Source: Gemmatimonadota bacterium
Lineage (GTDB): Bacteria; Gemmatimonadota; Gemmatimonadetes; Longimicrobiales; Gaopeijiaceae
Assembly (NCBI GenBank): GCA_026706635.1
Contig: JAPOYJ010000072.1
Span: forward strand, 62,001 to 126,000
Direction: 5' to 3'
DNA length: 64,000 bases
Both the position numbers and the translations under genes were made by a program. The notes beneath the pieces were generated by a model. It saw only the letters and a program-made list of their open reading frames with translations. It was not told where the DNA came from and did not search any database. This document shows, one piece after another, positions 8,573 through 62,734 of the stretch (positions are counted from its first letter, which is position 1; each line of letters begins with the position of its first letter).

Positions 8573-9649
8573 ATGAAGCTGCGCCTTGCACTCCCGATGG
8601 CGCTCTGCGGGTGCCTTGGCATCGCCGATCCTGCGACCGCGGGCGGCCCCGCCGCCCGGCCAGGCGCACAGGAGCCCGCGGACACGGTCCTCGCGACGCT
8701 GGGGGAGATCACCGCCCGTCAGGAACGGATCCTGGAACGGCTCGACTCGATCGAGGCGAGGTCGGCCGGGGTGTCGTCGCCGGAGAGCGGCGGGACGGAG
8801 GGAACCACGCTGGAAGGTGCAAGGAGCGAGGTGACAGGCCTCGGCCTAGGGCTCTTCTGGTCGGTGGTGGTGCTCGTCGCCTTCCACCTCCTGATCCGGG
8901 CCGTCATCTGGGTGCTCGAGGCGCTGGCGGAGCGGAGCGTCGCGAGGCGGCTCACCTTCAAGCGGCTGATCCCGATCAGCCGCATGTTGCTCTGGGGGGT
9001 GGCGGCGTACCTCGTCGTGAGGGTCGTCTTCGGCGTCGACTCGCAGGGAATCCTGGCGGCGAGCGCCGCTGCGGGGCTCGTCCTGGGCATTGCCGCGCAG
9101 GACCTTCTCAAGAACGTCTTCGGCGGCCTGACGGTGGTCTTCGACCAGCCCTTCCAGGTGGGGGACAAGATCGCAGTCGGGGACACCTACGGCGAGGTCG
9201 TCTCGATCGGGCTCCGCTCCACGAGGATCGAGACTGCCGACGACAACCTGGTCACCGTACCGAACTCGCAGGTCGTCGAGCAGCAGGTCGCGAACTCCAA
9301 CGCGGGCAAGGTCAATTGCCAGGTGGCGACCGACCTCTACCTGCCCGGAAGCGTCGACGAGGAGCTGGTGCGCGAGATCGCCTTCGAGGCGGCCGCCAAC
9401 TCCAGGTACACCTTCCTCGAGAGGCCGATCCAGGTCTTCATCGAGGACCAGTTCCGGACGACCTTCGTGACGCGGGTGCGGGTGCGCGCCTACGTGCTCG
9501 ACCCGCGCTTCGAGTTCCTGATGCAGAGCGACGTGACCGAGCGGGCGCGCGACGCCTTTCGGGCGGCTGGCCTCTCGCCGAAGGAGGGCTGGCCGCCGCT
9601 GGCGCTCTGGCCGGGGAAGGTGGCCGACGAGGGATCGGCCGCCTCGTGA
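8573..9649 (+). CDS. Small-conductance mechanosensitive channel (MscS family)
   Basis: About 358 residues with a signal-like N terminus (KLRLALPMALCGCLGIADPATAGG), a short coiled coil (LGEITARQERILERLDSIEA), then three hydrophobic segments: GLFWSVVVLVAFHLLIRAVI, LLWGVAAYLVVRVVFGV and the glycine/alanine-rich pore helix GILAASAAAGLVLGIAAQDL. The MscS core follows: KNVFGGLTVVFDQPFQVGDKIAVGDTYGEVVSIGLRSTRI with NLVTVPNSQV, then the cytoplasmic alpha/beta domain. It opens under membrane tension in osmotic downshock. The start ATG is chosen because it opens the signal-like helix. The stop TGA overlaps the GTG of the next gene (GTGA), a sign of a coupled pair. Confidence 0.93.
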   Translation: MKLRLALPMALCGCLGIADPATAGGPAARPGAQEPADTVLATLGEITARQERILERLDSIEARSAGVSSPESGGTEGTTLEGARSEVTGLGLGLFWSVVVLVAFHLLIRAVIWVLEALAERSVARRLTFKRLIPISRMLLWGVAAYLVVRVVFGVDSQGILAASAAAGLVLGIAAQDLLKNVFGGLTVVFDQPFQVGDKIAVGDTYGEVVSIGLRSTRIETADDNLVTVPNSQVVEQQVANSNAGKVNCQVATDLYLPGSVDEELVREIAFEAAANSRYTFLERPIQVFIEDQFRTTFVTRVRVRAYVLDPRFEFLMQSDVTERARDAFRAAGLSPKEGWPPLALWPGKVADEGSAAS

Positions 9650-12600
9650 CAGAACCCCGGGAGGACAGGGCGCCTGCTGCGTCACGGCCGGGAATTGCCG
9701 ATTCGGAGGTTGCGGCGCTCGTCCGGGCCGCGGTGCATCCACCCTTTGCGGCCGTCTGGGACGGATACGCGGCCGGGTGGGGCGAGGTGCGGGGTGCTCT
9801 CCAGGCCGCCACGGCGACGCATGCCGACGCGCTGGCGAGGCTCGAGGGTGCCCTGGAGGCCGATGGGGAGGCCGCTGGCCGGGTGCTCGCCGCGTACCGG
9901 GAGCAGGTGGCGACCCATCTGCTGACGCCGCTGCGCGAAGCGCTGGCCGCCGCTCCGGGAGCGGTCTCGTTGGCCGCGAAGCTGAGGGCCGCCGAGGCCG
10001 AGGCCCGCTCCGCCGCGGCCGAGCTCCCCGAGAGTCTGCCGGTACCGATCTCGGGAGATGCGCTGACTGCGGGCCGGGGGCTGGGCGCGGGCGTCGCCGC
10101 TAGGCGCACCGTTGCGCGGCTCCTCCGCCCGCTGATCTGGCGCTCCGGCACCCGCGAGGTCCGAGCGGCCGGGCTGGCCGAGAGGCACCTCGACCTGGAT
10201 GTGCTCCCCAGCCGGGATCGCCTCTTCGGGGTCGCCTGCCGCGCCGTGGCGGCGTGGCTTGGCCGGGTGGAGCGCCTCTCGACCGAGTGGAGTCGGGCGG
10301 TGCTCCTCCCTCCCGAGCGCAACGGAGCCGCCCGCCTCGGGGACTCGTCCGATGGCGGCGCCGCTGCTCTCCGGGAGGCCGCACGGCGGATGCAGGAGGG
10401 ACTGGAGGCGCTGGATGGCGGTGCCGACGAGGTGGTGGCTGCCGCCGCCGAGGCCGCCGAGATGGAGGCGGAGGCGCACGTGCTCGCCAGCGCGGTCGCC
10501 GTGGAGGGCACCTTCGTCGCTCGGGGCTCTGGCCGTCGGAGACGCTCGAGATGGCTACGGCAGGAGATGGCCGCTACTAGGTGGGACCGGTGGGGTGCGG
10601 AGTCGGCGGCGCGGCTCGAGCTACACCTGAGCGTCCTGGCGCTCCGCGCGGTGGCGGAGCGGCTGCTGGAGCGCCTGGCGGCGGAGTGGCGGGACGTCGC
10701 CGGGGCGGCGGCCGCCGAGATGGAGGGCGCGAAGGCGGCGCTGGTCGAGGCGGTGGCGCGAGCCGAAGCGCTGCCGGAAGGCGCGGACGACCTGGGGGAG
10801 CGCATCGCCGCCGAGCGGGAGCGCACACTCGAACGCCTCGGCCGCAGTGTGGCTAGCGCGGAGCGGCTGGAGGGCATGGGGGCGGCGCTCACGGTCTCGG
10901 CCGGGGAGGCTGTCCGGGAGCTGGAGGCGGCGTGCCTGGCGCTGCCCGAGCTCGCGGTACACGATCTTCCGAGGTCCGGCAGGCCGATGCGGCGGCCAGG
11001 GAGGCCCGCTCGCGCCGTACAGTGGCGAGACTTCGCTCTGCAGGCCTTCAACGCGCTGCGGATGGAACGCATTCGGACCTCGCCGGCGGCGCTCGCAGAG
11101 GCGCTGGCCGAGGTGCGATCCGAGCTGTCGGAGGCTGTGCAGGTGGCCAGCTACGGGCTGGACGCCGCGCTCGACGAGCTGTCCGGGAGCCCGGATGCAG
11201 CCGCACGCCCGCTGGCGCTTGCCCGCGACGCCCTCGCCAGCGCCGCGGACAAGGTGGGCCGTACTCGCGGCACTCCCGAAGAGGGCGAGCGCTCCTCTGC
11301 GGCCACCGCCACCGCCGAGACGATGGATGGGATGGAGCATGTCGCGCTCCGCGCCACCTCCCACGACCCGGCGGCACGGCATCTCGACGCGGCCCGCGGC
11401 TACCTGGCCGGGGAGGCCGCGGGGTACTGGGCACGGGTGCGCGGCCGAATCGGCGGGGCCGCGCGGCAGCTCGCTAGCGCGGCTGGCAGGCAGCTCTCCC
11501 GCCTGCGATCCGTGGTGGCAAGGATGCGGGCCGGGCCGCAGAGCGCACACCGGGGACCAACGCCGACCGAGAGCTCGCCGACCTCGGCGGCCGAGCTCCT
11601 GCACACGCTTCCCATCGTCTACCAGCGGCTCTTTGCCTTCGACCCGGTGAGGGACGAGCAGTTCCTGGCCGGGCGCGGCCGCGAGCTCGACGACATGCAG
11701 GCCGCGTGGGCGCTCCGGCGCGGGGGAGGACCCTCGGTCCTACTGGTGGTGGCGGAGCCCGGGGTGGGTGCCACGAGCTTTCTGAACATCGCCCTGCGCC
11801 GGATCGCTGATGACGGGGGCGACCTTAGGCGGGTGGAGCTCCGCGACCGGATTCGCGACGAGTCGGTCCTTGCCCGTCGGGTGGCCTCGTGGCTCGAGGT
11901 GGATGAAGCGGAGAGCCTGGATGCGATCGCCGGGAGGGGGCCGGGATACCGGCGGGACCGCGCCCCGCGGGTCGTGCTGGTCGAGGGTGCCGAACACCTG
12001 GCGATTCGGGCGCCTGGAGGGATGCACCTGGCCCGTCGCTTCTTCGAATTCGCCGCGCGAGGGCGACCGAGCGCCTTCTGGGTCGTGTCGATCGGGTGGT
12101 CGGCGTGGCAGCTGATGCGCACCCGCGCGCCGGAGCTCGCCGCCTTCCTGCCCATCCTCTCGCTCTCTCCCCTCGCCCCCGAAGAGCTCCGCTCGGCGGT
12201 GAGGTCGAGGCACCGTCGCAGCGGCCTCCCCCTGAGGTACCTGGAGCCGCGCACCGGAACCGCCCGGCTGCGTCTTCGGGTGATAGGAAGGGCCGGTCGC
12301 AGCGCCCGCCACCAGGAGCTGATCGGGAGGGACTACTTCGAACGCCTGCACAGGCTCTCTGGAGGCTCGGTCCGGCTCGCCCTCCTCTACTGGCTGCGCT
12401 CCGCCGACTTCGCCACCGAGGAGGGACGGGTGCTGGTGCGCCCGCTCGAGCCGCTCGGTGCCCGCACCGACACGCTGAACCGGGACCAGCGCTTTGCTCT
12501 CAAGGCGGTGCTCGACCACGGGACGGTGACCGCCGAGGAGTACGCCGAGATCGTGCGGGTTCGGCCGAGCGACGGAGAGCACACCCTGAAGGCGCTCAGA

Positions 12601-12783
12601 GCGGCCCGCTTCGTCGTCGAGACGGCCGCCTCCACCGGGAACGACCCGGTGCGCTACGCCATCGACCGCCTGATGGTGGGCCCGGTGGTCGAGCACCTGC
12701 GGTCGCACAACATCCTGCACAAAGGTACAGCCCCGCCTTCACCACCCGACTTGGTCACTGACCATGTAGGAGTTAGTCACTGA
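9646..12783 (+). CDS. Large helical protein with degenerate P-loop NTPase domain
   Basis: 1045 residues from a GTG overlapping the mscS stop. Residues 1 to about 640 are alanine/glutamate-rich helices without a recognised domain or clear transmembrane segments. From about residue 655 there is a STAND/AAA-like module: FLAGRGRELDDM, then AEPGVGATS at 703-711 in the Walker A position and RVVLVEGAEHL in the Walker B position. The invariant Walker A lysine is replaced by Ala709 and Walker B lacks the usual DD/DE pair, so ATP hydrolysis is doubtful. A winged-helix-like tail follows (LNRDQRFALKAVLDHGTVTAEEYAEI). Overlap with mscS suggests a channel-associated regulator or scaffold; that is inference. 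Confidence 0.8.
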   Translation: MTEPREDRAPAASRPGIADSEVAALVRAAVHPPFAAVWDGYAAGWGEVRGALQAATATHADALARLEGALEADGEAAGRVLAAYREQVATHLLTPLREALAAAPGAVSLAAKLRAAEAEARSAAAELPESLPVPISGDALTAGRGLGAGVAARRTVARLLRPLIWRSGTREVRAAGLAERHLDLDVLPSRDRLFGVACRAVAAWLGRVERLSTEWSRAVLLPPERNGAARLGDSSDGGAAALREAARRMQEGLEALDGGADEVVAAAAEAAEMEAEAHVLASAVAVEGTFVARGSGRRRRSRWLRQEMAATRWDRWGAESAARLELHLSVLALRAVAERLLERLAAEWRDVAGAAAAEMEGAKAALVEAVARAEALPEGADDLGERIAAERERTLERLGRSVASAERLEGMGAALTVSAGEAVRELEAACLALPELAVHDLPRSGRPMRRPGRPARAVQWRDFALQAFNALRMERIRTSPAALAEALAEVRSELSEAVQVASYGLDAALDELSGSPDAAARPLALARDALASAADKVGRTRGTPEEGERSSAATATAETMDGMEHVALRATSHDPAARHLDAARGYLAGEAAGYWARVRGRIGGAARQLASAAGRQLSRLRSVVARMRAGPQSAHRGPTPTESSPTSAAELLHTLPIVYQRLFAFDPVRDEQFLAGRGRELDDMQAAWALRRGGGPSVLLVVAEPGVGATSFLNIALRRIADDGGDLRRVELRDRIRDESVLARRVASWLEVDEAESLDAIAGRGPGYRRDRAPRVVLVEGAEHLAIRAPGGMHLARRFFEFAARGRPSAFWVVSIGWSAWQLMRTRAPELAAFLPILSLSPLAPEELRSAVRSRHRRSGLPLRYLEPRTGTARLRLRVIGRAGRSARHQELIGRDYFERLHRLSGGSVRLALLYWLRSADFATEEGRVLVRPLEPLGARTDTLNRDQRFALKAVLDHGTVTAEEYAEIVRVRPSDGEHTLKALRAARFVVETAASTGNDPVRYAIDRLMVGPVVEHLRSHNILHKGTAPPSPPDLVTDHVGVSH

Positions 12784-13183: not shown

Positions 13184-14485
13184 CTACGCCACCGTAGAGC
13201 GCACGGCAGCCACGACCTCCTCCAGCCCCCGCTCCAGCTCGGAGGCGGCGACCGTGGCGGGGGGCGCCAGCTCCACCACCTCGCCGCGCACGCCGGCCGG
13301 CAGCACGATCACCCCTTGGCGGAGCGCTTTCCGAGCCACTCCGACCGCCGGCTCCGAACCGCCATCCGCCGCGAGTTCGATCCCGATCAGCAGACCGCGG
13401 CCACGCACCTCCAGCACGCGATCGCACCCGTCGAGTTCCGACCTCAGGTAGGCAAGCGCGTGGCGGCCGCCGCGCCGTGCCCGCCCGATGAGATCCTCCG
13501 CCTCGAGGGCGGCCAGGAAGCCCAGCCCGGCGGCGCACCCCAGCGGGTGGCCCAGGAAGGTGCTCGTGTGGATCGCCTCGCCGGTGGATCCAGGCCACGC
13601 GTCCATGACGGCGGCCGGGCCCACGCAGGCGGAGATCGGCACACCACCCCCGAGCGCCTTGCCGAGACATACGAGGTCGGGGCGCACCCCCTCGTGTTCG
13701 CAGCCCAGGAGCGCGCCGGTTCGCCCCATCCCCGTAAGGACCTCGTCGGCGACGAAGAGGGCGCCCTCGGCGCGGGCGAGCCGCGCGACCTCGGCCAGGA
13801 AGCCCGGAGGGGGGATGCGCACTCCCGCGCGGCCCTGGACGGGTTCGGCCAGAAGAGCCCCGACCGGCACGGTGGCCGCCCCTGCCAGGAGGCGGGCGAC
13901 CTGGTCGAGCGCACGGGGAGCCTCCATCTTCGACTCCGGGAAGGGCACGAACTCGACATGGCGTGCGAGACGCTCGACGAAGCTCTGGCGGAAGTGCTCC
14001 CGACCGGTGGCGGCGAGCGCCCCGAGCGTGAGGCCGTGGTAGGCACCCTCGAAGGCGATGACACCGGGCCTGCCGGTCGCCAGCTGGGCCGTCTTGAGCG
14101 CCGCCTCGACCGCGTCCGCGCCACTCAGTCCGAGTATCGCCCGCGACGACTCCCAGGGGAGCAGCGCCGAGAGCGCCTCGAGGAACTCGACCTTGACCGT
14201 CGGCGGGTGCACGTCGCCCATCGCATGGACGAGGCGTCCGGCCTGCACCCTGATGCGCTCGACGACGAGGGGGTGGGCGTGACCGGCGAATGCCACGCCA
14301 AAGGCCCCCGAGAGGTCCAGATACCTGTTCCCTGCCGCGTCCTGCACCTCGGCGCCGGATGCGCTCGTCCAGAAGGGCGGCGGTTCGGCGAGGTAGGTGA
14401 CGTTGCGCGACTCGACCCGGGCGAGCCTCTTGGCCCAGCCAGCGGCGGCCTGACCGCCCTGACCGGCAGCCGCTTCAGCCGACAA
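13184..14485 (-). CDS. Class III pyridoxal-phosphate aminotransferase
   Basis: About 433 residues, fold type I PLP enzyme of the ornithine/GABA/adenosylmethionine aminotransferase group. Visible landmarks: YLDLSGAFGVAFAGHAHP, the phosphate-binding LSGADAVEAALKTA, FEGAYHGLTLGALAATG, the cofactor aspartate in LFVADEVLTGMGRTG, and the Schiff-base lysine in CLGKALGGGVPIS, followed by HTSTFLGHPLGCAAGL. The exact substrate cannot be assigned. A TTG at 14483-14485 overlapping the end of the upstream exchanger gene is the best start, since longer starts would run deep into that gene. Last gene of the ligA operon. Confidence 0.85.
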   Translation of the reverse strand: MSAEAAAGQGGQAAAGWAKRLARVESRNVTYLAEPPPFWTSASGAEVQDAAGNRYLDLSGAFGVAFAGHAHPLVVERIRVQAGRLVHAMGDVHPPTVKVEFLEALSALLPWESSRAILGLSGADAVEAALKTAQLATGRPGVIAFEGAYHGLTLGALAATGREHFRQSFVERLARHVEFVPFPESKMEAPRALDQVARLLAGAATVPVGALLAEPVQGRAGVRIPPPGFLAEVARLARAEGALFVADEVLTGMGRTGALLGCEHEGVRPDLVCLGKALGGGVPISACVGPAAVMDAWPGSTGEAIHTSTFLGHPLGCAAGLGFLAALEAEDLIGRARRGGRHALAYLRSELDGCDRVLEVRGRGLLIGIELAADGGSEPAVGVARKALRQGVIVLPAGVRGEVVELAPPATVAASELERGLEEVVAAVRSTVA

Positions 14486-15443
14486 GGGCGATCCACGCGG
14501 TGCAGCTGCAGTAGACCACGAGGAGGAGGACGCCCTCGGCACGGCTCACCCGTCGCCGGCTCCAGGCGATCGGCCAGAGGAGGAAGGAGATGGCCAGCAC
14601 CGCCGGTAGCTGGAGGCTGAGGACGGTTGGATCGACGGGGAACTCGCGTACCAGCGTGGCCACCCCCAGGACGGCCGTCAGGTTGAAGACGTTCGACCCC
14701 ACTATGTTGCCCACGGCTATGTCGGCCTGCTGACGCGCCGCCGCCACCACCGAGGTGACGAGCTCCGGGAGCGACGTCCCCACCGCCACGACCGTCAGCC
14801 CGATCACCTCGGCGCTCACCCCGAGCGCCGACCCGAGGTACGAGGCCCCCTCTACGATCGCCTTGCCGCCGAAGCCGAGCCCCAGCGCCCCCACGGCCAC
14901 CCGCCCGAGATTTGCCGTCAGGGCGCGCACCCTGGCCGCGTCGCGCTCCGGGTCGGCCGCCACTGGGTCTGCAATGTCGGGCAGGTCCTCCTTGTCCTCA
15001 ACCGTGTAGAAGGTGAAGGCCACGTAGAGTACGAGCAGCGCCATCAGGATCACGCCCTCCGTGCGATCCACCCGGCGGTCCAGGAGGAGCGGGAAGGTGC
15101 AGAGCGAGACCAGGAGCATGATCGGCACATCGCGGGTCACCATCCGGTCGGCTACCGCGAGTGGCCGAATCACCGCGACGGTGCCCAGGATGAGACCGAT
15201 GTTGGCCAGGTTCGACCCCATCACATTGCCGAAGAGAAGACCCGTCTCCCCTTTGAGTGCCGCGAACGCCCCCACCACCAGCTCGGGCGCGGAGGTGCCG
15301 AGCGACACCAGGGTGAGACCCACCACGAGCGGACTGACGCCCAGCGAGGCGGCGATCCTGGCGGCACCGCGCACGAGCCATTCGGCACCGAAGTAGAGGG
15401 CGCCGCACCCACCTACGATCAGGAGCAGGTTCGCGGCCATCAT
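14475..15443 (-). CDS. CaCA-type sodium/calcium exchanger (YrbG-like)
   Basis: About 322 residues, an integral membrane antiporter of the Ca2+/cation antiporter superfamily with about ten hydrophobic segments. The two alpha repeats are clear: LTLVSLGTSAPELVVG with GNVMGSNLANIGLILG in the first half, and LTVVAVGTSLPELVTSVVAA with GNIVGSNVFNLTAVLG in the second, including the GTSxPE and GNxxGSN ion-binding motifs. A cytoplasmic loop (EDKEDLPDIADPVAADPERD) separates the halves. The ATG at 15441-15443 overlaps the ligA stop (ATGA); the frame stays open upstream inside ligA but has no membrane-like sequence there. Confidence 0.92.
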   Translation of the reverse strand: MMAANLLLIVGGCGALYFGAEWLVRGAARIAASLGVSPLVVGLTLVSLGTSAPELVVGAFAALKGETGLLFGNVMGSNLANIGLILGTVAVIRPLAVADRMVTRDVPIMLLVSLCTFPLLLDRRVDRTEGVILMALLVLYVAFTFYTVEDKEDLPDIADPVAADPERDAARVRALTANLGRVAVGALGLGFGGKAIVEGASYLGSALGVSAEVIGLTVVAVGTSLPELVTSVVAAARQQADIAVGNIVGSNVFNLTAVLGVATLVREFPVDPTVLSLQLPAVLAISFLLWPIAWSRRRVSRAEGVLLLVVYCSCTAWIALVG

Positions 15444-17650
15444 CGCGCTTGGGTCGCAGCCGCCGACCTCCCCAGGCGCTCGCGGAGGCCCCTCTCGTCG
15501 AGGAGCTCCACCCCCAGCTCGATGGCTTTCTCCACCTTCGACCGTCCGGGGTTGGCACCGGCCACGAGCAGGTCGGTCTGTCCGGTCACCGTGGCGGTTA
15601 CCCTGGCGCCGAGCCCGACGAGCACCGAGGCGAGCTCGCGGCGGCTGTACCCCTCGATCCGGCCGGTCAGCACGACCCGCTTGTCCCTCCACTCATCGGC
15701 GGCCGCATCCACATCCGGGAGAAGGGATAGGGGCAGCGCTCGCACGCCGCTCGCCTCCAGCTCGGCGAGCGTTTCCACCACCTCCCTCCGGTCGAGGAAG
15801 CCGCGAATCGCCTCCGCTATGATCGGCCCGACCCCGTGGATTGCCTGCAGCTCCTCGACCGTAGCACCCCGCAGCGCCTCCAGCTCCCCAAAGCGATGCG
15901 CCAGCGACCGTGCCACCGCCGCCCCCACGTGCGGCACCCCCAGGCCGACCAGGAAGCGATCGAGGGCCACCTCGCGCCTCGCATGGATGGCCGCGACGAG
16001 ATTCCTGCGCCATTGCGTCGCCTTCCCCTCCTTCACGAAGGGTGCCAGGTCGTCGACGGCGAGCTCAAAGAGATCCGCCACCCCCGACACGACCCCCGCA
16101 TCGACCAGTCGGTCGATCGTCCTCCCCGCCAGCCCCTCGATGTCGAAGGCGTGCCGCGACGCGAAGTGGGCGATGCGTGCCTTCAGCTGCGCCGGACATC
16201 CGACCTGGTCGGGGCACGCTCTGAAGGGTCCTCGGTCGACGGCCTTCGCGCCGCAGGCGGGACAGGCAGAGGGCATCCTGTATGGGGCGCCGCGCTCCAC
16301 GCCCTCCTCCTCGACCCGCGCCACGACCTGGGGAATCACGTCGCCCGCCCTCTGCACCAGGACCCGATCGCCCTCGCGGATGTCCTTTCGCTCCACCTCC
16401 TCGCGGTTGTGCAGCGACGCTCGCGATACCAGCACGCCGCCGAGTCTGATCCCGGCCTCGGGTTCGAGCCCGTCCTCCGGCCAGACGGCCTCCAGCCGCG
16501 CCACCGGGGTCAGCACACCCGTGCGCCCCACCTGGGTCAGTATCCCGGCGACCCTCGCCTCCCTCTGGCGGGGCGGAAACTTGTACGCCAGCGCCCACCG
16601 AGGGTGGTGCGAAGTGCTCCCGAGGCGCTCCCGCTGCGCCAGGTCGTCGAGCTTGGCCACAACGCCGTCGATCTCGTAGTCGAGGCTGTCGCGGTCCGCC
16701 TCGAAGGCTCCGCGGTAGGCCGCGATCTCGTCGACCGAGCGGGCCGTCCGGACCCGCTCCGGGGTGAGGAGGCCCCACGCCCCGAGCACCGACAGAGTCC
16801 CGGTGTGGGTCTCGAGGGGCTCGCCCCCCTCCACCTCCAGGAGCTCGAAGGCCAGCACCGTGAGGCGGCGGGCCTTGGCTTCGTCCAGCTCCAGTTGGCG
16901 GAGCGCGCCGGAGGCCACGTTGCGGGGGTTCTTGTACGGCTGCGGGCCGACGCCGGTCGCGTCCCGTCCCTCCTCCCGGGCGAGGCGCATCGCCTCCTCC
17001 CGCTTCCGGGCCCTCTCCTCGTTGAGCGCCTCGAAGTCGCTCCGGTACATGATCACCTCGCCCCGGATGGAGACCTCCCTGGGAACCGGGGCGCTCTCTC
17101 TGGAAAGGCGGCGAGGCACGGACCGCACCCTAGTCACGTTGTGCGTCACGTCTTCGCCGGCCCGGCCGTCGCCGCGGGTAACGGCACGCTCGAAAGCACC
17201 GTCGCGGTATACGAGCTCCACCGAGGCACCGTCGAGCTTCGGCTCCAGCACGTAGCGGGGCGGCTCGCCCTCCAGTGCCTCCAGCACGCGTTCGTGGAAG
17301 CGGCCGACTGTCTCCAGATCGTGGGCCGAGTCGAGTGAGAGCATCGGGGCCAGGTGCTCGACCCCGCCCTCCAGGCCGACTGCGACCTCTTCGCCCGTGT
17401 CGACACCATCGGAGAGGACCTCTACCCCCTGGGTGGGCGAGTCCGCGTGCACCAGATCCGGGTGCGCGCCCTCGAGCGCCCTGAGCCGCTCGAAGAGCGC
17501 GTCGTACTCGGCGTCGGAGACCTCGGGCGCGGAGAGCCGGTAGTAGAGGGTGTTGTGACGCCGGATGGCCTCGCTCAGTCGCGCGATCTCGGCGCGAGCC
17601 TCGGCGCTGCTCGACTGGCCGGCGACGCCGCCGGTGCGCTGGACTGCCAT
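15440..17650 (-). CDS. ligA: NAD-dependent DNA ligase
   Basis: About 736 residues; seals nicks in replication and repair using NAD+. Domain order is canonical: Ia domain (HNTLYYRLSAPEVSDAEYDALF), adenylation domain with catalytic Lys138 in LEPKLDGAS, TRGDGRAGEDVTHN and SLDYEIDGVVAKLDD, OB fold (ILTQVGRTGVLTPVA), four-cysteine zinc finger (CPACGAKAVDRGPFRACPDQVGC), helix-hairpin-helix repeats (LGVPHVGAAVARSLA, IHGVGPIIAEAI) and a C-terminal BRCT domain (KRVVLTGRIEGYSRREL). The ATG at 17648-17650 is preferred over an upstream start at 17713 because family members begin here. First gene of an operon with the exchanger and aminotransferase. Confidence 0.96.
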   Translation of the reverse strand: MAVQRTGGVAGQSSSAEARAEIARLSEAIRRHNTLYYRLSAPEVSDAEYDALFERLRALEGAHPDLVHADSPTQGVEVLSDGVDTGEEVAVGLEGGVEHLAPMLSLDSAHDLETVGRFHERVLEALEGEPPRYVLEPKLDGASVELVYRDGAFERAVTRGDGRAGEDVTHNVTRVRSVPRRLSRESAPVPREVSIRGEVIMYRSDFEALNEERARKREEAMRLAREEGRDATGVGPQPYKNPRNVASGALRQLELDEAKARRLTVLAFELLEVEGGEPLETHTGTLSVLGAWGLLTPERVRTARSVDEIAAYRGAFEADRDSLDYEIDGVVAKLDDLAQRERLGSTSHHPRWALAYKFPPRQREARVAGILTQVGRTGVLTPVARLEAVWPEDGLEPEAGIRLGGVLVSRASLHNREEVERKDIREGDRVLVQRAGDVIPQVVARVEEEGVERGAPYRMPSACPACGAKAVDRGPFRACPDQVGCPAQLKARIAHFASRHAFDIEGLAGRTIDRLVDAGVVSGVADLFELAVDDLAPFVKEGKATQWRRNLVAAIHARREVALDRFLVGLGVPHVGAAVARSLAHRFGELEALRGATVEELQAIHGVGPIIAEAIRGFLDRREVVETLAELEASGVRALPLSLLPDVDAAADEWRDKRVVLTGRIEGYSRRELASVLVGLGARVTATVTGQTDLLVAGANPGRSKVEKAIELGVELLDERGLRERLGRSAAATQAR

Positions 17651-17793
17651 TGTCAAGGGTATATCCACCCGCCACCCGCTGCCAACCGCAAGCGGCCGTA
17701 GCCACGCAAACAACGCCTCTGGCGACGCGCCTGTGAACCTTGCACCTTGGAGCTGTCCAGCAGCCGCTCCAACCTCCTCTGGACTCCCAGAAA

Positions 17794-52940: not shown

Positions 52941-53578
52941 GCGCCGGGGAGGAGAGCCGGGGCGTCGCCGGGGACACCGGTACCGACGCTTCCGATCCTA
53001 AGGAGGAGGCCAGCGCGCCCGAGGCTCCCGATCCGAAGGAGAAGGCTGGCGCATGCGACGCTTCCGATCCTAAGGAGGAGGCCAGCGCGCCCGAGCCTCC
53101 CGATCCAAAGGAGGAGGTTGGCACGCCCGAGGATTCCGACCCGAAGGAGGAGGCTGGCGCGCCCGAAGCTTCCGACCTAAAGGAGAAGGCTGGTGCATCC
53201 AAGGCCCCAGACCAGAAGGCGAAGGCCTCCAGAGTCGGCTTCGGAGTCCCGGAGCTACCCGAGGCCAAGCGGATGGAGCGACTACACTGCGCTGGCAGGC
53301 AGGTCCCCTCGCCCGTGGGCGGCTTCGTAATGGCTCTCGGAGTGCGTCAGGAGGAGGACCGAACGAGCACGATCCTCTTCGAGTGCAAGACCTCCGCGCT
53401 CCGCTACGAGCTGCCGATGCGGGTCAGCGGCTGGCGAGAGCGCAGGAAGGTCAGGATCCAGGTGGAGGAGGGGCTCGACCCGCTCTGCCCCAGGGCCGAG
53501 CTCGGCCCGCCGCTCGTGCGGCGCGGCAAGGACTTCTACTGCCCCCGTTGCAACATCTGGTTTGGGAGGGTGCCGTAG
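52937..53578 (+). CDS. Protein with 12-residue repeats and Cys-rich C terminus
   Basis: 213 residues from a TTG overlapping the asparaginase stop (TTGA). Residues 18-97 are about 6.7 copies of a 12-residue repeat (consensus xSDPKEEAGAPE), highly charged and probably disordered. The C-terminal half is a compact domain (MERLHCAGRQVPSPVGGFVMALGVRQ...FECKTSALRYELPMRVSGWRERRKVRI) ending LCPRAELGPPLV and FYCPRCNIWFG, with cysteine pairs that could bind zinc. No family recognised. The next gene starts within or just at its 3' end. Confidence 0.7.
   Translation: MSAGEESRGVAGDTGTDASDPKEEASAPEAPDPKEKAGACDASDPKEEASAPEPPDPKEEVGTPEDSDPKEEAGAPEASDLKEKAGASKAPDQKAKASRVGFGVPELPEAKRMERLHCAGRQVPSPVGGFVMALGVRQEEDRTSTILFECKTSALRYELPMRVSGWRERRKVRIQVEEGLDPLCPRAELGPPLVRRGKDFYCPRCNIWFGRVP
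52988..53227. repeat. 36-bp tandem repeat (about 6.7 copies)
   Basis: Period 36 bp, units starting at 52988, 53024, 53060, 53096, 53132, 53168 and a partial unit at 53204. They encode the 12-residue repeat of the 52937-53578 protein. Units 1 and 3 are nearly identical (GATCCTAAGGAGGAGGCC), indicating recent slippage or unequal exchange. Confidence 0.85.
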
Positions 53579-57510: not shown

Positions 57511-58620
57511 GTGTCCCCCTCCGTGATCGCCCGCCGGGCCGGGCCCATCTGCTCGGTGAGTCTACTCCTCGGCGCGCTCGGCTGCACGAAGCTGCGGCCC
57601 GATATCGGCATCTTCGGGGGTTCGGCCCAGGTGTGCTACGACCGCTCCGCCCAGCTCCAGACGGCGGTGGTCGACACCCATCTCCACTTCCGCCCCTTCG
57701 GCGGCCCTCCGGTGCCCTTCGACGAGGTCATGGGGTACCTGCGCGAGACCGGGGTGTTCTTTGTGAACATCTACGGCATCGGCCAGATGCTCCCGGTGGA
57801 TTCCCCCTGCACCTACTACCTGGACTGCCCCGGCACCCCGGTCGTTCCCACCCTGAAGAACGATTTCGCCAACGCCTCCAACCTGCTGGCCAGCGCACCT
57901 TCGGATATCCACGTGACCTTGGCCATGACCTTTCCCGACCTCGCCAGCCCCGGAGAGATCCTGATGGGGATGGACCTTCTGGAGAGGGAGTACCCGCGCA
58001 TGTTCCGCTGGATGGGCGAGGTCAACCTGGTCAAGCAGGCGCTCTTCAACAATGATCACCAACCCGTGCCGCTCGACAGCATCGCGGAGTGGGAACCCTT
58101 CATGAAGCGGCTGCGTGAGCACGACATTCCGATTGCCATCCACTCCGACCTGGGAGACGACGACGAACCGACGCGCTACCTGCCGTGGATGCAGAAGGTG
58201 CTCGACCTCTATCCCGACAACAAGGTCGTCTGGATGCACATGGGTCTCTCGCTCGAGCTGACCTCCATGCCGGCCAGCGAGCATATCGGCCTCATGAAGT
58301 CGCTGCTGGACCGGCATCCCAACCTCATGCTGGACATCGCCTGGCGGATCATCGACGACAACTACTTCTCCAAGGAGGAAAACCAGCCGCTGTACGTGGA
58401 CTTCCTGAACGAGTATTCGGACCGCATACTGCCCGGGACGGATTTCCTGGCATCGTCCAACAAGGACTTCGAGGTCTACAGGTCGGAGCTGGAGGTGACG
58501 AGCCGCATCAATCGCTTCCTCGACGACGAGGCCTTCCGCGACATAGCGTTGGGGCGGAACTACTTCCGCCTGATGGGCCTCGACTACAGCGCGCCGCCGA
58601 TCTGTGGGACAGAGGACTAG
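57511..58620 (+). CDS. Amidohydrolase-family lipoprotein
   Basis: 369 residues. Signal peptide with lipobox ALGC (ICSVSLLLGALGC) anchors it at a membrane. The metal-dependent hydrolase fold of the amidohydro_2 type follows: VDTHLHF (HxH), PIAIHSDLG (His), VWMHMGLS (His), and LPGTDFLASS (Asp), in the expected order. No substrate is known; similar proteins include decarboxylases and lactonases. The GTG start is at the end of MITE-like copy R4; another copy (R3) follows the stop immediately. It has no adjacent operon partner. Confidence 0.83.
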   Translation: MSPSVIARRAGPICSVSLLLGALGCTKLRPDIGIFGGSAQVCYDRSAQLQTAVVDTHLHFRPFGGPPVPFDEVMGYLRETGVFFVNIYGIGQMLPVDSPCTYYLDCPGTPVVPTLKNDFANASNLLASAPSDIHVTLAMTFPDLASPGEILMGMDLLEREYPRMFRWMGEVNLVKQALFNNDHQPVPLDSIAEWEPFMKRLREHDIPIAIHSDLGDDDEPTRYLPWMQKVLDLYPDNKVVWMHMGLSLELTSMPASEHIGLMKSLLDRHPNLMLDIAWRIIDDNYFSKEENQPLYVDFLNEYSDRILPGTDFLASSNKDFEVYRSELEVTSRINRFLDDEAFRDIALGRNYFRLMGLDYSAPPICGTED

Positions 58621-58745
58621 CAGCCGTGGACAAGCCTCCCCCGGCATTCGAGGTGCCCTGCATCCACGCTGGGCCCCTTCGCCCTGCGTTGCCTCTTGCG
58701 AGAATAGCGCTGCTATTCGCGCATCGAAGCGCCTTGCCAGTGGGG
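58621..58745. mobile_element. MITE-like interspersed element, copy R3
   Basis: Begins GCAGCCGTGGACAAGCCTCC, closely matching R1, and continues GGCATTCGAG...CTGCATCC. The stem-loop is at 58698-58722: GCGAGAATAGC pairs with GCTATTCGCGC (one mismatch, 3-base loop). Compared with R1 (GGACCAATAGC/GCTATTGGTCC) the outer half of both arms has changed together, keeping the pairing. The end matches CGCCTTGCCAG in R1. The right terminal inverted repeat is missing. Confidence 0.7.
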
Positions 58746-58798
58746 CGGCCCGCGAACGGGACCCCGACGGCCTGGCGGACGGGCCGCCACCCACCGGG

Positions 58799-61700
58799 AT
58801 GGTGAAGAACCCGTCTAGGCGGCGGGGACGCGGGCGCAAGCGCGGCCGCAGGCCCGTGCTCGGAGCCCTGGGGTCGGCCCTCATCTGCCTAGCGAGTTGC
58901 GACTCGAACGAGATGCCGGTCACGGTGGGCAGCATCCCCGGCCATACCGTCCATGTCGGAGAGATGGCCACCATTTCGCTCGACCGCTACTTCAGCGATC
59001 CGGACGGGGACGACCTGATCTACGGGGCGGAGTCTTCGGACGAGGGTGTGGTAGCGGTGTCGGTGTCGGGCGGCGCTCTAGAGGTGGCGGGGGTGTCGCA
59101 GGGATCGGCGACTGTAACGGTCGTGGCCACCGACGCGGGTGGCCTCTGGGCCGAGCAGGGCTTCACGGCGACGGTGCCGAATCAGGCACCGGAGCTCTCC
59201 GATTCGATTTCCGACGCCGAGGTCTTCGTGGGCGATGCGATCGAGGTTTCGCTCTCCGAGCACTTCAGCGATCCAGACGGCGACCCCCTGAGCTACCTGG
59301 CTGAGTCCTCCGACCCGGCCACGGCGACGGTGTCGGTGTCGGGCGGCGCTCTCGAGGTGGCGGGCGTGTCGCAGGGATCGGCGAGGGTAACGGTCGTCGC
59401 GAGCGACGCGGGCGGCCTCTCGGCCGAGCAGGGCTTCACGGTGACGGTGCCGAACCGGGCGCCGGAGCCCTCCGGTTCGATCTCCGACGCCGAGGTCTTC
59501 GTGGGCGATGCGATCGAGGTATCGCTCTCCGAGCACTTCAGCGATCCGGACGGCGACCCGCTGAGCTACGGTGCTGAGTCCTCCGACCCGGCCACGGCGA
59601 CGGTGTCGGTGTCGGGCGACACTCTCGAGGTGGCGGGGGTGTCGCAGGGATCGGCGAGCGTAACGGTCACGGCCATCGATGCGGGTGGCCTCTCGGCGGA
59701 GCAGGGCTTCACGGTGACGGTGCCGAACCGGGCACCGGAGCCCTCCGATTCGATTTCCGACGCCGAGGTCTTCGTGGGCGATGCGATCGAGGTATCGCTC
59801 TCCGAGCACTTCTCGGACCCGGACGGCGACCCGCTGAGCTATCTGGCCGAGTCCTCCGACTCGGCAACGGCGACGGTGTCGGTGTCGGGCGACACTCTCG
59901 AGGTGGCGGGGATGTCGCAGGGATCGGCAGCCGTGACGGTCGTCGCGAGCGACCCGGGCGGCCTCTCGGCGGAGCAGAGCTTCACGGTGACGGTGCCGAA
60001 CCGGGCGCCGGAGCCCTCCGATTCGATTTCCGACGCCGAGGTCTTCGTGGGCGATGCGATCGAGGTATCGCTCTTCGAGCACTTCTCGGACCCGGACGGC
60101 GACCCGCTGAGCTACGTGGCCGAGTCCTCCGACTCGGCAACGGCGACGGTGTCGGTGTCGGGCGACACTCTCGAGGTGGCGGGGATGTCGCAGGGATCGG
60201 CAGCCGTGACGGTCGTCGCGAGCGACCCGGGCGGCCTCTCGGCGGAGCAGAGCTTCACGGTGACGGTGCCGAACCGGGCGCCGGAGCCCTCCGATTCGAT
60301 TTCCGACGCCGAGGTCTTCGTGGGCGATGCGATCGAGGTATCGCTCTTCGAGCACTTCTCGGACCCGGACGGAGACGAACTGAGCTACGGTGCGGAGTCT
60401 TCGGACGGGGGCGTGGTCGCGGTGTCGGTGTCGGGCGACACTCTCCAGGTGACCGGAGTTGCCAAGGGATCGGCGATCGTGACGGTCACGGCCACCGACC
60501 CGGAGGGCCTGTCCGCCGAGGAGAGCTTCGAGGCGAACGTGGTCTACACAACCCGTCAGGTTCTGGAGGCCTTCTACCACGCGGCTGGCGGGGACGGGTG
60601 GAGGTACAGGAGGAATTGGCTGAGCGACAGGGATCCGCGGAACTGGCATGGCATTGACTATGATAACGATGGAATCGCCAGCATTAGTTTAATCACCAAC
60701 AACATGTCGGGAACGCTCACTCCCCTGCTGGGTGAACTCACCAACCTCAAGGCACTCAACTTTCTGATCAACAACCTCCGAGGTGGGATACCTCCGGAGT
60801 TGGGCGAGCTGCGCAAGTTGGAAGGTCTGACTCTGGCTCGCAATCCGATTGGCGGATCCATCCCGCCCGAACTTGGCAATTTGACCGAACTGGTCGCCTT
60901 CAACATGGATCGCACCGATCTCGAGGGATCGATCCCGCCCGAACTGGGCGAGTTGCCGGATCTTCGGCACCTCCACCTCGACCAGAACGAGCTGACGGGG
61001 GCGATTCCGCGCGAACTGGGCGATCTCTCCAATCTTGTGAGACTCTCGCTTACCAACAACGATCTCTCCGGCAACATCCCTTCGAGCCTTGGCCGCCTGG
61101 GGCGGCTGCATCGCCTGGAGGTCAGCCACAACCCGAAGCTGACGGGGACGATTCCGTCGAGCTTCACCAACCTCACCGAGTTGTGGGTCTTCTACACTGG
61201 CGGAACCGGAGTGTGCGGTCCCGACGATTCCACTTTCCTCGACTGGCTCGGGGGGATCATGCTCTTGCGGGTGAAGATCTGCGGGCGTGAGGGCCTGGCC
61301 GCCTATCTCGTCCAGGCCACCCAGTCGCGAGAGTATCCGGTCCCTCTGGTCGCCGAGAAACAGGCGTTGCTGCGGGTCTTCGTGACCGCGACCAGGGAGA
61401 CCGACGAGGAGATTCCGCCGGTGCGGGCTCGATTCTACAGGGACGGTTCGGAGACGTACACGGTGACGATCCCCGGCAAGTCCGTCGTGATTCCGACCGA
61501 GATTGACGAGAGCTCGCTCGAGACTTCGTCCAACGTGACCATTCCAGATACGGTCCTGCATCCCGAACTCGAGATGGTGATCGAGATCGATCCGGATGGC
61601 ACGCTGGACGAAGACCTCCTCCTAACCAAGCGCATTCCCGAAGAGGGCCGGCTGGCGCTGGAAGTTCACTCCATGCCCGACTTCGATCTGACCTTCGTCC

Positions 61701-62734
61701 CCTTCCTCTGGGAAGAGGATCCAGACTCCTCGGTCCTAGAGGCGACCGAGGCAATGGTGGATGACGAGGAAGAACACGAACTGCTCCACGACACCTACGA
61801 CCTGCTGCCAGTGGAGGGGCTGAGCGTGTCGGAGCACGACCCCGTCGTGAGTTCGTCGAATGTGCACGTCCACTTGCTCCACCAAACCTATGCGATCCGG
61901 GCCGTGGAGGGTGGGTCCGGCTACTGGATGGGGTTGATGGCCGGAAAGGTCTTGGGCGGTCGTGGGGTCGCCCTCCTGGCCAACAAGGTCAGCTTCTCGG
62001 TTCTCGACTCCTGGGTGATGGCGCATGAGCTCGGTCACAACCTGTACTCCCTGCACGCTTCGGGCTGCGGGACTCTTCCAAATACGGTCGATCGCAACTA
62101 TCCGTACCTGGACGGCGAGATCGGGGCGTGGGGATACAACCATCGCACCAGGAAGGTGGTGCAACCTTCCACATCCGATTTCATGAGCTACTGCGACCCC
62201 AGATGGGTCAGCGACTACTTCTTCTCCAACATGACGCGCTTTCGGGCGAACGGGGCCGTTATCCCCGGAGACCCCACCTTCGAACGCCGTGGTCTTCTGG
62301 TGTGGGGTAGCGTGGACGACGAGGGAGTGCCTTCGCTGGAACCGGCCGTGGTGGTCGATGCCCCGCCCAGCGGACGGCGCGGGCCCGGTCCCTACACGTT
62401 GACCGGTAAGGACGCGGCTGGCGCCCGGCTCTTCTCGTTCTCGTTCGACATGGAGGAGGTCGCCGACGCGGAGGAGGGGGTCGCCCAATTCGCATTCGTC
62501 CTTCCGGTCGAGCCCGGATGGGCGGGCTCGCTGGAGAGTATCACGCTGACGGCCCCGGACGGGTCGGCCTCTCTGGACGGCGAGACCGACGCCCCGATGG
62601 CGATCATCCGCGACGTCCGGAGCGGCCAGGTGCGGGCGTTCCTGCGTGGGCTGTCCGAGCGCCCGGCACCGCCAGCCGGGTTCGAGGTGTACTGGAGCCG
62701 GGGGATCCCAGACCGGGAGGAGTGGGCACGGTAG
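58799..62734 (+). CDS. Large lipoprotein: cadherin-like repeats, LRR and metzincin-like zinc protease domain
   Basis: About 1311 residues. Lipobox LASC closes the signal peptide (VLGALGSALICLASC). Six tandem ~91-residue cadherin-like modules follow (EHFSDPDGDPLSY, ESSDxATATVSVSG, FTVTVPNRAPEPSDS), then a linker (LEAFYHAAGGDGWRYRRNWL) and about eight plant-type LRR units from residue 600 (LxGxIPPELGxLxxL). The C-terminal half contains HELGHNLYSLH (His1076, His1080, His1086) and a likely Met-turn in SDFMSYCDPRW, which fits a metzincin-type zinc peptidase with Tyr in place of the usual Gly. Surface-anchored adhesion or degradation of protein is likely. The ATG at 58799 is inferred from the signal peptide. 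Confidence 0.85.
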   Translation: MVKNPSRRRGRGRKRGRRPVLGALGSALICLASCDSNEMPVTVGSIPGHTVHVGEMATISLDRYFSDPDGDDLIYGAESSDEGVVAVSVSGGALEVAGVSQGSATVTVVATDAGGLWAEQGFTATVPNQAPELSDSISDAEVFVGDAIEVSLSEHFSDPDGDPLSYLAESSDPATATVSVSGGALEVAGVSQGSARVTVVASDAGGLSAEQGFTVTVPNRAPEPSGSISDAEVFVGDAIEVSLSEHFSDPDGDPLSYGAESSDPATATVSVSGDTLEVAGVSQGSASVTVTAIDAGGLSAEQGFTVTVPNRAPEPSDSISDAEVFVGDAIEVSLSEHFSDPDGDPLSYLAESSDSATATVSVSGDTLEVAGMSQGSAAVTVVASDPGGLSAEQSFTVTVPNRAPEPSDSISDAEVFVGDAIEVSLFEHFSDPDGDPLSYVAESSDSATATVSVSGDTLEVAGMSQGSAAVTVVASDPGGLSAEQSFTVTVPNRAPEPSDSISDAEVFVGDAIEVSLFEHFSDPDGDELSYGAESSDGGVVAVSVSGDTLQVTGVAKGSAIVTVTATDPEGLSAEESFEANVVYTTRQVLEAFYHAAGGDGWRYRRNWLSDRDPRNWHGIDYDNDGIASISLITNNMSGTLTPLLGELTNLKALNFLINNLRGGIPPELGELRKLEGLTLARNPIGGSIPPELGNLTELVAFNMDRTDLEGSIPPELGELPDLRHLHLDQNELTGAIPRELGDLSNLVRLSLTNNDLSGNIPSSLGRLGRLHRLEVSHNPKLTGTIPSSFTNLTELWVFYTGGTGVCGPDDSTFLDWLGGIMLLRVKICGREGLAAYLVQATQSREYPVPLVAEKQALLRVFVTATRETDEEIPPVRARFYRDGSETYTVTIPGKSVVIPTEIDESSLETSSNVTIPDTVLHPELEMVIEIDPDGTLDEDLLLTKRIPEEGRLALEVHSMPDFDLTFVPFLWEEDPDSSVLEATEAMVDDEEEHELLHDTYDLLPVEGLSVSEHDPVVSSSNVHVHLLHQTYAIRAVEGGSGYWMGLMAGKVLGGRGVALLANKVSFSVLDSWVMAHELGHNLYSLHASGCGTLPNTVDRNYPYLDGEIGAWGYNHRTRKVVQPSTSDFMSYCDPRWVSDYFFSNMTRFRANGAVIPGDPTFERRGLLVWGSVDDEGVPSLEPAVVVDAPPSGRRGPGPYTLTGKDAAGARLFSFSFDMEEVADAEEGVAQFAFVLPVEPGWAGSLESITLTAPDGSASLDGETDAPMAIIRDVRSGQVRAFLRGLSERPAPPAGFEVYWSRGIPDREEWAR
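59204..60540. repeat. 273-bp tandem repeat array (about five units)
   Basis: The sequence TCGATTTCCGACGCC and its surroundings recur at 59204, 59477, 59750, 60023 and 60296, exactly 273 bp apart, coding one cadherin-like module each. The units at 59750-60022 and 60023-60295 differ at only about three positions, so the last duplication is recent. A more diverged unit precedes (about 58931-59203). Confidence 0.9.

Follow-up and report, generated by a model that had tools for sequence, protein, structure and literature searches.

An AAA+ protein without the Walker A lysine is encoded with an MscS channel subfamily and is a candidate regulatory subunit of the channel

The window, a 64,000-nucleotide stretch of a Gemmatimonadota MAG contig, carries an mscS gene whose stop codon overlaps the start of a gene for a large AAA+ protein, here termed P2, that lacks the Walker A lysine. 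Where P2 genes had enough flanking sequence, mscS was adjacent in nearly all cases, and since the family, its place next to mscS, the overlap of the genes and the loss of the lysine are all conserved across dozens of genomes, the pair is not a product of chance. The reading that we favour, with modest confidence, is that P2 regulates, as a dedicated subunit in the cytoplasm, an MscS channel that serves osmotic and K+ homeostasis. The MscS family itself is well known, and its pairing with an obligate, unnamed AAA+ partner appears, on genome comparison, to be a system for which we found no description: a full-text literature search, in which subscription papers were thinly covered, found no published account of the MscS-P2 pair, of MscS accessory proteins of this kind or of Trk/MscS/antiporter fusions. 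This agrees with a first reading made from the sequence alone (the sequence-only reading), which had not recognised the pairing as a described system.

Table 1. Features of the mscS-P2 pair in the window, with the basis of each assignment.
Feature	Coordinates	Strand	Basis
mscS, MscS-family channel, 358 aa	8573..9649	+	PF00924 match, 78 bits
mscS transmembrane region including pore helix, residues 97-176	8861..9100	+	hydropathy and alignment
mscS beta-domain, residues 177-243	9101..9301	+	PF00924 match
GTGA, P2 start codon over mscS stop	9646..9649	+	window sequence; 4-nt overlap
P2, MscS-partner AAA+ protein, 1045 aa	9646..12783	+	translation
P2 helical arm, residues 1-635, a unit present in two divergent copies (about 15-296 and 297-575)	9646..11550	+	AlphaFold2, hhalign
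P2 AAA+ core, residues 650-939, ORC/Cdc6-like	11593..12462	+	Foldseek and VIA
Lysine-less Walker A AEPGVGATS, residues 703-711; Ala709 at 11770-11772	11752..11778	+	sequence and alignments
Walker B strand VVLVEGAEHL, residues 776-785, with Glu780	11971..12000	+	alignment and model
Near-invariant RHxxSG motif, residues 855-860	12208..12225	+	alignment
C-terminal winged-helix domain, about residues 940-1025, with the conserved NILH of the family at its end	12463..12720	+	model secondary structure, profile matches to SmtB and OhrR
20-aa C-terminal extension of the window P2	12721..12780	+	aligned relatives stop after NILH

The mscS gene runs from an ATG at 8573 to a TGA at 9647-9649, and P2 begins inside that stop codon, as the sequence-only reading had stated, with a GTG at 9646-9648 and a reading frame open to 12783. 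A promoter and terminator scan at the locus gave nothing useful. The PF00924 beta-domain match of the channel lies far above the cut-off of 20.2 bits, hydropathy indicates three transmembrane segments, the third directly before the beta-domain, and the N-terminus is predicted to hold a signal-like segment and a periplasmic helix. A profile of the MscS family matched 41 MscS-type sequences in the PDB. Over its transmembrane and cytoplasmic parts, the partner MscS had about 27% identity with an MscS paralogue from the same genomes. When the two were compared in the same 18 genomes, the cytoplasmic domain was conserved to 0.86 in the partner and to 0.83 in the paralogue without P2, so that no specially conserved cytoplasmic interface on MscS showed against this control, a negative result that tempers the regulatory-subunit reading; TM1-2 alone were more conserved in the partner (0.80 against 0.66).

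Co-occurrence of the two families was analysed across genomes. P2 was present in 49 of the 121 genomes of the GTDB family of the window, including every genome of its genus (23/23) and of a second genus (11/11). All 45 genomes of that family with the partner MscS subfamily also held P2; 44 of them exceeded 450 bits with the partner MscS profile and one (G004) was cut by a contig start, while, with the exception of one contig-cut fragment (G025), the next MscS paralogues scored below 100 bits. The four genomes with P2 and no such MscS (G015, G016, G099 and G111) all had P2 at a contig end. In the order holding a Rhodothermales genome, P2 was found in 36 of 99 genomes and the MscS subfamily (>390 bits) in 34, each of them with P2, the remaining two P2 copies again lying at contig ends; one genome (G291) held an intermediate MscS of 155 bits without P2. 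Taken together, 79/79 genomes with the MscS subfamily held P2 and all six P2 copies without MscS were at contig ends. The pairing is thus strict (45/45 and 34/34), and adjacency to mscS, on which the sequence-only reading had made its proposal depend, is kept. Distances between P2 proteins and between their MscS partners correlated with r = 0.90 over 59 loci (best shuffle 0.25), a correlation that can be expected from shared descent alone.

The two genes overlapped in all 42 Gemmatimonadota loci in which both were seen, by 4 nt in 36 of them and by 8 to 41 nt in the others. The reversed order, P2 followed by mscS, occurred in Bacteroidales and Myxococcota and in Cesiribacter andamanensis, a cultured species of Cytophagales; the three Myxococcota loci inspected each had a possible 4-nt overlap. 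No other neighbour of the pair was conserved in Gemmatimonadota, and a larger conserved locus was therefore rejected for that phylum. Among the named carriers of P2 are 'Candidatus Palauibacter' and many MAGs of Gemmatimonadota, and no copies of the window protein were found on plasmids. Five MAGs labelled Gammaproteobacteria (L075, L076, L077, L085 and L108) carry P2 copies that fall among those of Gemmatimonadota, and their labels are probably wrong. In one genome the P2 C-terminus recurs as a second, partial copy some 5 kb downstream of the complete gene (G006:C60:49558-49893), and open frames of about 1690-1760 aa with weak matches to the P2 profile (G225:C448, G230:C122, G112:C230 and G150:C239) possibly form a further branch of the family.

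No Pfam model matched the window P2 above its cut-off, AAA_16 being sub-threshold (E 0.0018), and none of the NCBIfam and PADLOC models matched it. The protein is soluble, with no membrane-like segment. An AlphaFold2 model of P2 built from 71 sequences had a pLDDT of 86.6 and a pTM of 0.75. Residues 19-627 were modelled as long helices (pLDDT 89.1 when modelled alone), which bears out the earlier description of about 640 helical residues before an NTPase-like module. This helical arm contains an internal duplication, detected by hhalign with E 4.7e-6 over 160 columns, column shuffles giving E > 0.5. No PDB match to the arm was obtained at E < 0.001. Its VIA matches were to designed bundles (Z 15.4) and to the bacterial dynamins 5owv (Z 10.0) and 4aur (Z 9.0); a Z of 9 to 10, as for the dynamin stalks, is within the noise for bundles.

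The remainder of the model predicts an AAA+ fold with a winged helix. Residues 650-939 matched ORC/Cdc6 chains in Foldseek (E 3.4e-7), the best VIA match was 7jgr_G (Z 16.1 over 247 residues, 3.5 A), and the VIA match list for the core was filled by chains of the ORC/TnsC/RFC type. Foldseek matches to NLRs (plant resistosomes) and to Apaf-1 were weak (E 2.5e-4 to 1.2e-3) and ranked below ORC, and profile similarity to ClpC and RuvB was also weak. The winged helix resembles the SmtB, OhrR and MarR families by profile matches. In the window P2 the stop codon that the family has after NILH is missing, and the frame reads 20 aa further.

The P-loop of the window P2 reads VVAEPGVGATSF, with Ala709 at the position expected for lysine, just as the sequence-only reading had it. 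Alignment of homologues showed that the loss is clade-wide: residue 709 was lysine in 0/71 Gemmatimonadota and Bacteroidota rows, which had V, I, L, R, T, H, S, M or A instead. Among the distant Myxococcota rows, lysine was kept in 12 of 26, the others having Q, R, N, T, L, S, G or A. The possibility that this copy is simply mutated is thus contradicted in the two main phyla, with the qualification that Myxococcota homologues partly keep the lysine. On a quick tree the state at 709 changed five times, and as the tree is unrooted, gain and loss are not distinguishable; a canonical P-loop as the ancestral state of the family would be the natural reading of these alignments.

The Walker B motif had been read as LVEGAEHL, lacking its acidic residue. 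The motif is real, and the acid is present: Glu780 aligns with the Walker B acidic position, which was D or E in 71/71 homologues, many as D-N-x-E-H, in an alignment of 64 Gemmatimonadota and Bacteroidota rows plus seven lysine-bearing Myxococcota rows. Within the 64, Thr/Ser710 was kept in 63, Gly708 in 62 and Asp/Glu780 in all, whereas the seven Myxococcota rows had the lysine and mostly lacked Thr710. Outside the nucleotide motifs, W812, W821 and R855-H856-x-x-S859-G860 were near-invariant across all groups, R855/H856 being found in 70/71 and S859/G860 in 71/71. Arg910, assigned as the sensor-2 arginine by motif alone, was present in 39/49 Gemmatimonadota, 3/15 Bacteroidota and 5/7 Myxococcota. 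Because Thr/Ser710, Gly708, Asp/Glu780, the R855-H856-x-x-S859-G860 motif and W812/W821 are kept without the lysine, the pattern would fit a site with changed chemistry and not simple decay. P2 of the window's clade is probably not an ATP-hydrolysing motor. The sequence-only reading had proposed a channel-gating scaffold or a catalytically dead, STAND-like sensor; a conserved MscS partner with a predicted AAA+ fold of the ORC/STAND type and no lysine is what we found, which supports that reading in part, and 'dead' exceeds the evidence because the Walker B acidic residue is retained.

A local mutation or pseudogene was likewise rejected, as the whole clade is without the lysine and the fast divergence of the window copy is genome-wide. 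The end branch of the window P2 was 1.08, against 0.16 and 0.21 in sister rows, and the ratios of divergence to the sisters were 2.2 for LigA, 1.55 for P2, 1.4 for MscS and 1.4 for CaCA. The genome itself is 2.8 Mb, compared with 3.3-4.9 Mb in its genus. The small genome of this lineage (G000) and four proteins that are 1.4-2.2 times more diverged than those of sister species suggest a reduced, perhaps host-associated lifestyle. Being fast-diverging, from a small genome and extended by 20 aa, the window P2 is a poor representative of its family, and a sister copy is better for the bench. In the window, an Na/Ca exchanger-type gene and ligA adjoin (14478-15602 and 15443-17710, both on the minus strand); in several relatives the exchanger gene also lies near ligA, away from mscS-P2, and the window context is therefore a rearrangement. 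Elsewhere in the window, 58574-62731 encodes a surface-type protein with Big/cadherin-like domains followed by leucine-rich repeats, in which a 273-bp (91-aa) repeat occurs in 5.4 copies that are 91% alike, and an array of about six copies of a 36-bp unit (52983-53227) lies just downstream of an asparaginase-type gene and includes stops in the frame translated.

The strongest clue to the function of P2 came from its neighbours in Myxococcota. The homologues there are distant, the P-loop part being 29% identical over 300 aa (E 5e-19), and form the C-terminal two thirds of proteins of about 1500 aa whose N-terminus is an Na_H_Exchanger-type membrane domain; PF00999 was above its cut-off in five of six fusions scanned and the sixth was recognised by BLAST. 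The gene order is trkA, trkH, the antiporter-P2 fusion and mscS, with the operon seen at L125, L126 and L128-L131 and mscS at L125, L128 and L131, where contig and frame allow. A second, more distant Myxococcota lineage (L163, L164, L190 and L193) has proteins of roughly 1200 aa in which an AAA+/winged-helix part can be recognised; each of their genes precedes an mscS of its own. Outside Myxococcota, no Trk or antiporter genes were found near the pair within the fetched flanks, and function would be carried over to the window's clade by the homology of the P-loop part.

In the mechanism that we propose, coupled translation would lead to MscS and P2 being made together, and the duplicated helical arm would reach the channel at its cytoplasmic vestibule or the adjoining membrane. 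The ORC/Cdc6-like AAA+ and winged-helix head would sense an intracellular cue and decide when opening is permitted. In Gemmatimonadota and Bacteroidota the head would work without normal ATP hydrolysis and may still bind nucleotide or another ligand as a switch, because the Mg-ligand threonine and the Walker B acid are kept though the lysine is gone. The Myxococcota P2 is joined to an antiporter, and its operon also holds TrkA, TrkH and MscS; as the cytoplasmic end of that antiporter it therefore probably coordinates K+ uptake, exchange and release. The pairing with its strict co-occurrence, the gene overlap, the reversal of order, the Myxococcota fusion and operon, the predicted fold and the lysine loss are observations, while physical contact between P2 and MscS, gating of the channel, the ligand, the stoichiometry and the absence of ATP hydrolysis in the clade are inferred. 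The winged helix could also bind DNA.

Such binding might even be the whole function, P2 being a regulator that binds DNA and controls transcription in the osmotic response, is co-transcribed with its target channel and never touches it. The folds nearest to P2 are those of origin-binding and TnsC-type DNA-binding AAA+ proteins, and its winged helix is like those of SmtB, OhrR and MarR; a helical arm of 630 residues is unusual for a regulator, however, the gene overlap suggests a fixed stoichiometry, and the Myxococcota P2 is covalently joined to a membrane antiporter, so that we consider this reading improbable. Slightly more credible, and still unlikely, is that P2 is a degenerate, drifting P-loop protein without a switch, its AAA+ head giving the channel no more than structural anchorage or a scaffold. 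The lysine position does vary freely (V, I, L, R, T, H, S, M, A) and the sensor-2 Arg910 is lost in most Bacteroidota, but Gly706, Gly708, Thr/Ser710, Asp/Glu780, R855-H856 and S859-G860 remain near-invariant despite the lysine loss.

The same loss weighs on a role for P2 as an ATP-dependent assembly or quality-control factor, a chaperone-like AAA+ protein acting on the channel and not gating it. The AAA+ fold, the weak profile similarity to ClpC and RuvB and the strict pairing would suit this role, which we hold to be quite improbable, since the lysine is lost in every Gemmatimonadota and Bacteroidota row and its loss normally abolishes the ATP cycle needed. We give the least credence to an NLR-like anti-phage or cell-death system, with P2 as a STAND sensor that would open the MscS pore so that an infected cell dies or is arrested. 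The Walker A lysine is normally required in STAND switches, the distribution is that of a core gene and not patchy (all genomes of the two main genera), the window protein is absent from plasmids, PADLOC, which covers described defence systems, recognised nothing in the window pair and only weak coiled-coil or P-loop matches in relatives, and the link to Trk and the antiporter points elsewhere; in favour there are Foldseek matches, all of them weak, to plant resistosomes and Apaf-1, and a channel is a plausible effector.

Returning to P2 as a regulatory subunit, a more far-reaching and tentative form of it, which we rate as possible though doubtful, is that P2 represents a general AAA+ control module, in which one cytoplasmic ORC-like protein binds and gates MscS channels (or, when fused, an antiporter next to Trk) by means of a ligand switch that hydrolyses no ATP. 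Textbooks present MscS as a model channel for which membrane tension is enough to cause opening; if the proposal is true, this MscS would be a ligand-licensed valve and not opened by tension only. An MscS subfamily tied to an AAA+ partner in at least two phyla, with a similar pair in a third, would place some MscS channels in machines under signal control. In the Myxococcota operon one protein links TrkA/TrkH K+ uptake, an antiporter and a release valve, which makes coordinated turgor control directly testable, while the P2 family, with the lysine kept or lost, offers a natural series for how AAA+ modules become non-hydrolysing switches.

Among known systems, E. coli MscS, YnaI, MscK and MscM have the PF00924 beta-domain and the transmembrane pore arrangement in common with the window mscS, and the solved chains of all four are profile matches of the partner MscS. 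The partner is nevertheless a distinct subfamily, paired with a separate AAA+ protein, whereas in other regulated members of the MscS family the additional domains are part of the channel chain itself. KefB/KefC-type antiporters have a membrane domain followed by an RCK/KTN regulatory domain; the Myxococcota P2 is likewise a cytoplasmic module after an Na_H_Exchanger domain, beside TrkA and TrkH, with the P2 AAA+ protein in place of the RCK/KTN domain. With STAND NTPases such as NLRs and Apaf-1, P2 shares an AAA_16-like GR box and a Walker B of the D-x-x-E-H type, and it differs in having no repeat sensor domain, no lysine and, in the window's clade, no fused effector. The best structural matches are the ORC/Cdc6 initiators (VIA Z 15 to 16), in which an AAA+ core is followed by a winged helix, as in P2; in contrast to them, at 10 to 16% identity, P2 is without the Walker A lysine and has a long N-terminal helical arm and a membrane channel as its partner.
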